64,000 bases of DNA from assembly GCA_945869965.1 (NCBI GenBank), contig CAMBRC010000009.1:1-64000 (forward strand). The letters run 5' to 3'. Origin of the DNA: Asaia bogorensis. Its GTDB lineage: Bacteria; Pseudomonadota; Alphaproteobacteria; Acetobacterales; Acetobacteraceae. The notes beneath the pieces were generated by a model. The model was not told the origin of the DNA, ran no database searches, and worked only from the letters and a program-made list of their open reading frames with translations. The translations under genes and the position numbers were made by a program. Of this stretch, positions 9,252 through 12,562 are shown piece by piece (position 1 is the first letter of the stretch; every line of letters begins with the position of its first letter).

Positions 9252-10244
9252 ATGCGCAATCTGTTGACCGATATTTCCGGCATCGCGGTGGGTCACGCCA
9301 CCGATCTCGCGGTCGGCACCGGCGCCACAGCAATCATATTCGACCAAGCCGCGGTGGCCTCAGCGGTGATCCTCGGCGGCGCGCCAGGCAGCCGGGATAC
9401 GGCGCTGCTGGAGCCGGAGATGACCCAGCAGCGGGTAAACGCGTTCGTATTCTCGGGCGGCTCTATCTATGGGCTGGATGCGGCTGGTGGCGTCCAGGCT
9501 TGGTTGCGCGAACAAGGCCGCGGCCAGCGATTGCGCGATGCGCTGATCCCGATCGTGCCCCAGGCGATCATTTTCGACCTGCTGAACGGCGGCAACAAGG
9601 ACTGGGGCCGCTTCTCGCCCTACCGCGACCTCGGCTGGGACGCGGCCGCTTCCGCCACCCACGGCGCCTTCGCCCTCGGCACCGTCGGCGCCGGCACCGG
9701 CGCCACCACCGCCACCGTCAAGGGCGGCCTCGGCTCAGCCAGCGTGCGGATGAAGGAGGGCTACACCGTCGCCGCCCTCGTCGCCGTCAACGCCGTCGGC
9801 ACCGCCACCATCGGCGACGGCCCGCATTTCTGGGCCGCGCCCTACGAAGTCGGCACCGAATTCGGCGGCCTCGGCCTGCCACCGTGCGTAACGCCTGACG
9901 ACCTCGCCCCCCGCCTGAAGGGCATGCCACCGCCCGCCACCGCCACCACCATCGGCCTGATCGCCACCGACGCCACCCTGACCAAGGCCCAGTGCAAGCG
10001 CCTGGCCATCATGGCCAATGACGGCCTCGCCCGCGCCATCCTGCCCGCCCACGCCCCCGGCGACGGCGACACCGTCTTCTCCGCCGCCACCGGCGCCCTG
10101 CCCCTGGCCGACGAATTCGACCTGACCCTGATCGGCCATGCCGCCACCCTGGTATTCGCCCGCGCCATCGCCCGCGCCGTCTACGAAGCCACCGCCCTGC
10201 CCTACCCCCCCGGCCTCAAATCCTGGAAGGACCGCTGGAGCTGA
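9252..10244 (+). CDS. P1 family peptidase (DmpA/L-aminopeptidase-D-esterase-like)
   Basis: A 330-residue member of peptidase family S58 (DmpA), N-terminal nucleophile-type enzymes that cleave themselves into two chains and hydrolyse small peptides or beta-peptides. The family core is clear: LTDISGIAVGHATD at the start, FVFSGGSIYGLDAAGGV, then GTVGAGTGATTATVKGGLGS, and TTIGLIATDATLTKAQ where the new N-terminal Thr/Ser of the second chain is expected. The start at ATG 9252 fits the family beginning better than the upstream ATG at 9216. It stands alone between the glycan cluster and the broken Hint gene. Its biological substrate is unknown. Confidence 0.85.
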   Translation: MRNLLTDISGIAVGHATDLAVGTGATAIIFDQAAVASAVILGGAPGSRDTALLEPEMTQQRVNAFVFSGGSIYGLDAAGGVQAWLREQGRGQRLRDALIPIVPQAIIFDLLNGGNKDWGRFSPYRDLGWDAAASATHGAFALGTVGAGTGATTATVKGGLGSASVRMKEGYTVAALVAVNAVGTATIGDGPHFWAAPYEVGTEFGGLGLPPCVTPDDLAPRLKGMPPPATATTIGLIATDATLTKAQCKRLAIMANDGLARAILPAHAPGDGDTVFSAATGALPLADEFDLTLIGHAATLVFARAIARAVYEATALPYPPGLKSWKDRWS

Positions 10245-10314: not shown

Positions 10315-11057
10315 ATGGCACTGCAAGCAAAGGTAGAGTTCTCGTCCCAACGCCTCCCGACCCAGACAACCAACTAAAGGTTGACGCTCCAGAACACGGG
10401 CACCACCCCGATCGGGGCATTGTGGTTCGCCCGCGACGACATCGCCGGAACCAACCTGATCAATACGTTCGATATGACGGTAGGCGCCAGTGCCGCGCCC
10501 ACCGGATGGACCGCGATCGTAACCCACAATGGCCCGCCGAACGACCAGGGTGCCCCCTGGACCGACGGCTACGGCATCCTTTGGACCGCCAACACCCCGC
10601 AAGACCGCCTCCTGCCAGGCGCCACCCTGTCCGGTTTCGATTTTCGTCCAGCGTCGGGCAATTCGCCATCACTGGCCCATCGCAGTTCAGCGCCAATTCG
10701 GGCACCGCCCACACTGTTGTCTATGAGACCTCCCCGTCGGGCGGCCCAGGTTTCGGCTTCACCGCCGGCGCCCCCGAAGGTGGCCTACTGCCCAGGTTGT
10801 ACACGACCGCCGAGCTGACAAGCACGGAACCCGACCACGGCCCGGATCCATACATCTACGGCGTCACCTTGCGAAATCTGGGAACAACCGACATCGGCAC
10901 ACTCTGGTTCGCCTGGGACGACGTGCCGGACCAGAACTTCATGCCCACGCCGCCGGGCATTCTGATGGGACCGCCGAACTGGCAAGCCACCGTCACCCAT
11001 AACGGCCCCACCGACGGCTAAGGCATTAAGTGGGTCGGTCCGCCCATCGCGCCAGGG
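10315..11057 (+). pseudogene. broken N-terminal repeat region of the Hint-domain protein
   Basis: This is the decayed front part of the gene that continues at 11058. From the ATG at 10315 the frame reads MALQAKVEF and meets a TAA at 10375, then continues in the same frame with LTLQNTGTTPIGALWFARDD. At the TTTT run at 10641-10644 one base is missing; the next frame continues FSSSVGQFAITGP and a second unit, GVTLRNLGTTDIGTLWFAW. A second TAA at 11019 interrupts DG-stop-GIKW, and the same frame then runs into the Hint gene. Two repeats of roughly 125-150 residues can be aligned across the lesions (LWFA..DD, VTHNGP, GF.FSS, VYET/VYQT). Both TAA codons stand where tyrosine is expected (YGVTL and GYGILW in the other copies). 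Confidence 0.75.
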
Positions 11058-12164
11058 ATGACCCAGAGCGGATTCTCCTTCTCCTCAACTGTCCGTCCCA
11101 GTGCCTTTCAGGGACCATCGCCAATCGATCCCAACTTCCAGATCGCTTCGTCCTTCGTCTACCAAACCACACCGTTCAGCGATCCCGGCCTCCTCTTCAA
11201 CGTCGCCTGCTTCCGCCAAGGCACCCGCCTGCGCACGCCGGCCGGCTGGTGCGCCGTCGAGGACCTCGCCATCGGCGACGTCGTGATCCTGCGCGACGGC
11301 ACCACTGCGCCGGTCAAATGGCTCGGCTGGCGCACCATCGATTGCCGGCGCCACCCGCGCCCGCGCAGCGTCTGGCCGGTCCCCATCGCGCCCCACGCCT
11401 TCGGCCCCGGCCGCCCAGCCCGCGACCTGTTCCTCTCGCCCGACCACGCCATCTTCACCGCCGGACGCCTGGTACCCGCATACCTCCTGGTCAACGGCGC
11501 CACCATCACCCAGGACCCGGTGGACAGCGTGACCTACTGGCACGTCGAATTGCCGTCCCACGCCATCGTCTCCGCCGAGGGCCTCGCCGCCGAGTCCTAC
11601 CTCGACACCGGCAACCGCGCCGCCTTCGCCAACGCGCCCCACACCATCATGCTGCACCCCGATTTCAGCCGCACCATCTGGGAGCGCGAAGGCTGCGCGA
11701 AGCTGTTGCTCAAAGGCACTGCCCTGACCCGCCTGCGCACCCGCCTCCTCGCCCGCGCCGAACGACTTGGCCACTCACTGACCGACGACCCCGGCCTGGA
11801 CATCCTGGTGGACGGCGTCCCCGCCCGCCTGTTCACCGCCGACCACCGCGTGATCGTCACCCTGCCGCCCGGCACAAGCGAAATCCACCTGCGCTCCCGG
11901 ACCTGGACCCCCGCCGAAACCACCCCCGCCGGCCAGGACCCAAGGCGCCTCGGCGTGGCCATCGCCAACCCGCGCTTCGACCTCGCCCCGGCCGCGATCG
12001 ACGACCCCCGCCTGGCCACTGGCTGGCATCCCCACGAGGGCAAGCTGCGCTGGACCGACGGGAACGCCACGGTCCAGGCGCATGGCGCCCGCCGCTTCGA
12101 CTTCGACCTGATGATGATCGGCCGCCACTGGAAATCGACGCGCGGCCGGCTGCGCATAGCGTAA
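11058..12164 (+). CDS. Hint (Hedgehog/intein) domain protein, 3' part of a broken gene
   Basis: A 368-residue open frame. The first 50 residues are the end of the second N-terminal repeat (FSFSSTVRPSAFQGP, VYQTTPFSDPGLLF). From ACFRQGTRLRTPAGW onward it is a Hint_2 type domain: the Cys that opens the domain, VEDLAIGDVVILRDG, VKWLGWRTID, LFLSPDHAIF with the conserved His, and VPAYLLVNGATI. Such domains self-process or form an ester at the catalytic Cys and are common in large secreted or surface proteins of Acetobacteraceae. No stop separates it from the upstream repeats except the TAA at 11019, so it is probably the C-terminal two thirds of a longer protein. It could still be translated from the ATG at 11058. 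Confidence 0.72.
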   Translation: MTQSGFSFSSTVRPSAFQGPSPIDPNFQIASSFVYQTTPFSDPGLLFNVACFRQGTRLRTPAGWCAVEDLAIGDVVILRDGTTAPVKWLGWRTIDCRRHPRPRSVWPVPIAPHAFGPGRPARDLFLSPDHAIFTAGRLVPAYLLVNGATITQDPVDSVTYWHVELPSHAIVSAEGLAAESYLDTGNRAAFANAPHTIMLHPDFSRTIWEREGCAKLLLKGTALTRLRTRLLARAERLGHSLTDDPGLDILVDGVPARLFTADHRVIVTLPPGTSEIHLRSRTWTPAETTPAGQDPRRLGVAIANPRFDLAPAAIDDPRLATGWHPHEGKLRWTDGNATVQAHGARRFDFDLMMIGRHWKSTRGRLRIA

Positions 12165-12166
12165 CC

Positions 12167-12562
12167 TCAGCCAATCCCCAGATCGGGAAAAGTCTGAAAC
12201 TCCAACATGTACCCGTTCGGGTCCTTCGCCATGAACCCGGTCACGCCATAGGCTTCGCTGTATCGCGGCGGACCCTCGGGGACAACGCCGTGGGCGGTGA
12301 GGTGGCGGTGCCACCCCTCCACATCGGGCGTGACAAAGCTGACGATCACGCCTTTCGGTTCCACGAAGCGGCCAGGGCGGACCTGGCAAACGCCGACATA
12401 GCTCGCCGGACCCTGGCGGAAAATGCGGCACCCGCCGCCATTTTGACCGGTCTGCTCGGCCGCCAATTCCAGACCTAGCACCTCGCCATAGAACTGGCCG
12501 GTGGCGACAAGGTCGTGGGTGTAGATCCAGGTGATCGAGCGCGCGACATCAGGATGTGCCAT
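12167..12562 (-). CDS. VOC family (glyoxalase/bleomycin-resistance fold) protein
   Basis: A 131-residue single-module protein of the vicinal oxygen chelate superfamily. The beginning ITWIYTHDLVATGQFYGEVLGLEL and the end GVTGFMAKDPNGYMLEFQTF show the paired beta-alpha-beta-beta-beta units, with a metal-ligand-type Glu in YMLEFQ. The substrate cannot be predicted. Its stop lies two bases from the Hint gene on the other strand, and the upstream fzlA gene ends ten bases before it, so it probably shares a transcript with fzlA. Confidence 0.82.
   Translation of the reverse strand: MAHPDVARSITWIYTHDLVATGQFYGEVLGLELAAEQTGQNGGGCRIFRQGPASYVGVCQVRPGRFVEPKGVIVSFVTPDVEGWHRHLTAHGVVPEGPPRYSEAYGVTGFMAKDPNGYMLEFQTFPDLGIG

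Follow-up and report, generated by a model that had tools for sequence, protein, structure and literature searches.

A decayed Hint_2 gene with two unnamed front units, predicted to be β-sandwiches, in Asaia bogorensis

Hint domains and the layout of the broken gene

Pretoxin Hint domains release a C-terminal toxin in other families than the one treated here. The BIL domains, according to PMC7765530, can cleave at their own N-terminal end and are located in the hypervariable regions of bacterial proteins that are not conserved, and the Hog domains are described, in PMC2362128, as a Hint domain joined to a recognition region. The Hint_2 family (PF13403) is tabulated among the families that are enriched in marine bacteria of fast growth (PMC12487129) and among modules for plant biomass (PMC4189754). 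A literature search joining "Hint domain" with "Acetobacteraceae" returned nothing.

The window, a stretch of 64,000 nucleotides of Asaia bogorensis, holds a gene at 10315-12164 that was originally predicted to be a decayed Hint gene, as confirmed by two in-frame stops, a frame change and a strong Hint_2 match. Its parts and its flanks are the following:

10315-12164, + strand: broken Hint gene, its translation interrupted by two stops in frame and by one change of frame
10315..10784, + strand: β-sandwich (predicted) unit 1, broken, about 157 codons; stop at 10375-10377, frame change near 10640
10785..11204, + strand: β-sandwich (predicted) unit 2, broken, about 140 codons; stop at 11019-11021
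11208..11609, + strand: Hint_2 domain (PF13403); Cys1 codon at 11208-11210, SPDH and YWHVEL..H segments kept
11610..12164, + strand: C-terminal tail, class I (by eye), about 170 residues, without Pfam match
9252..10244, + strand: left flank, unbroken gene, presumably a P1/DmpA-type peptidase; marks the syntenic site in the sister species
12167..12562, - strand: right flank, unbroken gene, which we take to be of the glyoxalase type; bounds the syntenic site on the right

The gene starts with the ATG at 10315, and its last open frame runs, in translation, from 11022 to the stop at 12162-12164. The frame change was placed near 10640 because the similarity to the unit switches frames there, the first-frame match reaching 10653, and the bounds of the units are approximate. 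All three lesions are concentrated in about 650 bases, and the genes on either side are unbroken: on the left, the open frames of three neighbours measure 364, 110 and 330 codons, and those of their counterparts in the sister species 364, 110 and 331; the right neighbour has 131 open codons, and both it and the next gene have full-length matches in that species (131 and 222 residues). In the strain of the window, the full protein is no longer made.

The Hint_2 match scores 148.2 bits against a curated cut-off of 28.4 (150.9 bits in a six-frame search) and runs to about 11609, beginning exactly at the Cys codon 11208, in agreement with the predicted opening of the domain with Cys. In an alignment comprising the window gene, four relatives and 12 of the 14 paralogue loci L002-L015 (L013 and L015 being left out), all 17 rows keep Cys1 together with the His of SPxH and that of the YxHxxL segment, Cys1 being present by selection, as the rows were cut at the CxxxGT motif; the assignment of catalytic roles among these residues is our assumption. 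The end of the match, taken by itself, reads ESYLDTGNR, without His-Asn; intein motifs that lack a C-terminal His-Asn are the mark of type B BIL domains, for which the gene would at most be a candidate. The predicted model of Hint domain and tail is poor (pLDDT 56.7, pTM 0.40), and its Foldseek rows, in which inteins head the list and rank 12 is a bacterial intein-like domain, were used solely for the intein likeness of the Hint part; a bacterial intein-like domain was the best match in a PDB profile search with Hint and tail (E 0.033). As for the tail, no Pfam family matched the window sequence at E ≤ 1. By eye, 13 of the 17 aligned tails form one class and the other 4 a second, and that of the window belongs to the larger one (class I), common to eight of the twelve aligned paralogues of the same genome.

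Compared to the BIL domains, as described in PMC7765530, the gene has in common Cys1 and the His of SPxH, in a Hint_2 match over the cut-off, and a variable host protein, but it differs in the conserved tail of about 170 residues behind its Hint domain. With the Hog domains of Hedgehog and its nematode relatives it shares the succession of a variable N-terminal part, a Hint domain and a C-terminal region (PMC2362128); however, the window protein is bacterial, and the likeness to this Hint with a sterol or adduct recognition region (SRR or ARR) is one of layout. The best reading of 10315-12164, as judged from sequence, would be a pseudogene of a modular Hint protein, whose front units may have been cut off or transferred by the Hint domain at Cys1.

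The front unit, its predicted fold and its relatives

The two units of the window are 53% identical over 80 residues (E 1.5e-9), with a local score of 126 compared to a maximum of 56 in 1000 shuffles, and the motifs LWFA..DD, VTHNGP and FSS noted in the original prediction are present in both. Among nine units, two of them partial, the invariant columns include WFA, TH, DG and two Phe. It had also been claimed that the repeat resembles no domain that can be named, and this holds for named families but not for the predicted fold, a common β-sandwich. Neither Pfam nor NCBIfam gave a match at E ≤ 1 with the unit pieces of the window, Pfam gave none above cut-off for the unit in four intact bacterial relatives, PHROGs left the unit unmatched in the proteins of an intact orthologue (L032) and of a phage contig (L033), and the best row of a PDB sequence-profile search with the unit had an E of only 0.13. 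Below threshold, CBM49 was matched in three of the four intact relatives and a DUF in the fourth; the CBM49 profile reached 14.6 bits at best against a cut-off of 23.4, which it missed, and the CBM2 and CBM3 profiles gave no row at E ≤ 1 with the window pieces or the relatives.

The AlphaFold model of the unit, made from a six-row alignment, has a pLDDT of 83 and a pTM of 0.79 and is nearly all β. Foldseek against the PDB placed CBM3a (E 1.9e-3), a chitinase and CBM2-type domains in the first rows, at a TM of about 0.42 and with zero rows at E ≤ 0.001, and in a viral structure library the best row was a Tupanvirus protein (E 5e-4, TM 0.42). In VIA-align, the best row was the copper-binding YcnI (PDB 8um6, 7mek; Z 9.4, 98 residues, 2.5 Å), followed by δ-COP (8.7), chitinase (8.4), CBM2 (row 6qfs, 95 residues, 2.8 Å, with a Z of 7.9, a level that, per the tool, may mean merely a common arrangement) and cohesin (7.6). 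As CBM2 lies 1.5 Z under YcnI and level with unrelated sandwiches, the modelled fold is taken as a common β-sandwich, which gives no function. YcnI itself, besides its first place, is only 13% identical to the unit and has no profile match listed. The likeness to CBM2, CBM3 and CBM49 consists of the predicted β-sandwich, the first Foldseek rows and the weak CBM49 match in three of four relatives, but the profile score of the unit is under the cut-off and its Z is level with those of δ-COP and cohesins. The unit is an unnamed module whose likeness to CBMs, as modelled, is weak, and it may be a binding module.

Homologues with the unit upstream of a Hint domain were found. In the sister species, the intact frame L032 (G857:C352) of 644 residues has two units, Hint_2 and the tail, and is the sole intact two-unit gene found, which agrees with the claim that the decayed gene preserves a two-unit architecture; three more distant intact frames of the same family (L019, L020 and L021) have one unit, Hint_2 and tail. 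A further relative, L022 (G014:C354), has one unit and a Hint domain; its frame changes close to the beginning, and the gene is cut near the end of the Hint domain, at the start of a frame that is presumably moaC-like. A single-piece query matched 6 of 299 genomes of the family, the window's own included, one of these matches (L023) being judged chance. With six-row profiles, the unit was found in 6 of 397 genomes of the family and 2 of 9 of the genus (profile A4), in 4 of 395 genomes of the order, all four in the family and one of them with a remnant (L027), and in 1 of 398 genomes across the phylum, the window's own (profile A1); in the family, order and phylum profile scans, at most ten first-look candidates were scored per genome, and absence of the unit elsewhere is thus not proved. 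A contig scan with the unit gave four loci, L032 and L029-L031, the latter taken as L019-L021, and a contig search with the window's own piece gave no relative. Among 72,556 plasmid records, no unit match was found at E 1e-5. Two candidates were set aside: L023 (G251, E 5.8e-4) is a stretch between or across unrelated frames, with no Hint-like frame among the listed ORFs, and L027 (G445) looks like a short remnant, with no Hint-like frame of at least 100 residues listed.

Other parts are found in front of Hint_2 as well. The Hint-and-tail piece of the window has 16 matches in its own genome, itself included, and Hint_2 is matched 9-21 times in each of the nine genomes of the genus, a count that includes some fragments at contig ends or from split genes. 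When ten of the twelve paralogue frames were scanned (E ≤ 0.001), a known module preceded Hint_2 in three, namely three phage tail collar domains (L004, G000:C60:3620-4621), a subtilase (L006) and an M10 serralysin with RTX (L011), and nothing known in seven. The two-unit front may be one of several unrelated front parts attached to Hint domains in these bacteria. Regarding other members of the family, four short Hint_2 frames and a cut one lie side by side in G244:C251 (L073), and four lie in a row in G212:C232 (L074), all of about 320-400 residues and with a part behind the Hint domain that is shorter than in the window gene. The frame L013 (G000:C41:18908-19405), in the genome of the window, has a class I tail with no Hint ahead of it and may be a further Hint gene that was broken or cut. 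In the sister species, the copy closest to the subtilase-Hint gene L006, L059 (G857:C460:5326-5732), has its Hint match split over two frames and a front without similarity, and is likely also broken.

The unit is also found in a phage tail protein. The genes of the viral contig IMGVR_UViG_3300025916_000413 (8978 bases) read as tail and baseplate genes, and its last frame (L033) combines DUF2612, fn3 and proline-rich linkers with one unit, whose identity to those of the bacteria is 40-49%. This protein holds at least one copy of the unit of the window gene, as the contig ends just behind it; it differs in that no Hint domain is seen. That the unit is a phage-derived tail module acquired by a bacterial Hint gene, and not a bacterial module acquired by a phage, is possible but doubtful. 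Such an origin fits the phage tail protein itself, the paralogue with three collar domains, and the rarity and patchiness of the unit in the family (six of the 397 genomes). However, this contig alone carries the unit across three viral-contig scans, none of 50,697 phage records matched it at E 1e-5, and the tree of the nine units has no starred branch, so that no direction can be read from it.

The syntenic site and the divergence of the gene

The window gene and L032 share neighbours that are 92-99% identical. Of the six genomes of the genus in which the syntenic site can be read, the window's included, two carry the gene there; G033, G297 and G119 are unreadable there and outside this count. 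In G274, about 39 bases separate the matches to the two flanking genes; in G212, the distance is 389 bases, with chance-level matches alone to the L032 protein (E above 5); and in G244 and G171 the flanks enclose a different gene, which resembles a solute-binding protein encoded in the window. The right neighbour, on the opposite strand, is also at the site in these four readable sister genomes without the Hint gene.

Comparing the window gene with L032, the identity is 43% in the units and 83% in the Hint domain, against 92-99% in the flanks. Five neighbours have a dN of 0.008-0.041, the Hint domain a dN of 0.10 and a dS of 0.32, and the tail 0.17 and 0.38, while the units reach a dN of 0.54 (0.46-0.63) and a dS of 0.88 (0.70-1.13), where, at 43% identity, the dS is rough and alignment error inflates both values. 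Moreover, units at the same position in the two genes are 48% and 44% identical, and those at different positions 53% and 48%; same-position units being no closer than the others fits, as far as sequence can tell, an exchange or an old duplication, between which the tree of the nine units does not decide. Pseudogene decay should be even, suggesting that the front units were probably replaced, or were fast-changing, before the gene was lost. That the divergence of the units stems from decay alone is improbable: the window copy is a pseudogene, and the dS of its units overlaps that of the left-flank peptidase (0.53-0.87), but decay should have hit the whole gene alike, and the Hint domain differs strongly from the units in both dN and dS. 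As the unit dS is rough and shows this overlap, unit replacement stays a lead.

The idea that Hint genes of this kind have fast-changing fronts in general is only partly borne out. In two other Hint genes of the same two genomes, dN is 0.02 and 0.04 in the Hint domain, 0.07 and 0.03 in the tail and 0.04 and 0.07 in the front, one of the sister copies being cut by a contig end and the other ending early. In both readable-front pairs with the same sister species, the front is about as similar as Hint and tail together, with 92 versus 93% for L010-L057 (L057 cut by a contig end) and 88 versus 88% for L011-L056 (L056 ending 59 residues earlier). Among ten pairs with three species that exceed 60% identity in Hint and tail, and with L006-L059 left out, as L059 is split between frames, the front was more than 20 points lower than Hint and tail in three (L008, L009 and L012).

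It could be argued that the lesions are sequencing or assembly errors in an intact gene, given that the assembly is a draft of 209 contigs. This is very unlikely, because three separate lesions fall within about 650 bases of one gene with unbroken neighbours on both sides, and the dN of the window Hint domain and tail exceeds that of the two other Hint genes, a difference which fits relaxed constraint, but equally a gene that simply changes faster.

Proposed mode of action and meaning for the family

Regarding function, we consider it slightly more probable than not that the locus once coded for a modular protein that processes itself and has since been inactivated, where export, cleavage and binding by the units are inferred. 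Such a protein would leave the cell with no need of a Sec signal, perhaps through type I secretion guided by its C-terminal part. Then, the Cys1 of the Hint domain would activate the preceding peptide bond as a thioester, from which the two-unit N-terminal part may be released or attached to a nucleophile, and the units might bind a polymer or a surface, by analogy with CBM-type and phage-tail modules. The original suggestion of a surface or secreted protein is made plausible by the partners of Hint_2 and of the unit, namely the M10 serralysin with RTX, the subtilase, the phage collar domains and the phage tail protein, but it is not backed by the N-terminus, as the four intact relatives have no strongly hydrophobic N-terminal stretch, judging by hydrophobicity. 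No RTX match was found in the window protein or its intact relatives, and with no Sec-like stretch either, export is a guess; the genome has two type I secretion adaptors over cut-off, with no link to the Hint gene shown.

A bolder extension, to which we give little credence, would make Hint_2 and tail a bacterial counterpart of the Hog domain, where the tail would recognise an acceptor and the Hint domain would transfer interchangeable front modules, here the two β-sandwich units, onto it at the cell surface or matrix, with modules being exchanged with phage tail proteins. Lastly, a polymorphic-toxin-type protein, in which the Hint domain would free a C-terminal toxin as pretoxin Hint domains do elsewhere, is highly improbable, because the variable part is the N-terminal one and a variable toxin domain behind Hint is absent, the tail being conserved (one class, by eye, in 13 of 17 rows) and without a Pfam match at E ≤ 1, and the next gene lies on the other strand and is also at the site in the four readable sister genomes without the Hint gene.

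Returning to the inactivated self-processing protein, the window gene is a modest finding, an unnamed module within a known kind of architecture. The modular architecture of Hint_2 proteins was known already, and the family is expanded in the genus and little described; to its front modules the gene adds an unnamed family, predicted to be of β-sandwich fold, which occurs both in Hint proteins of bacteria and in a phage tail protein. Should these modules be released or attached by Hint_2 proteins, one cleavage assay could test a whole set of proteins.
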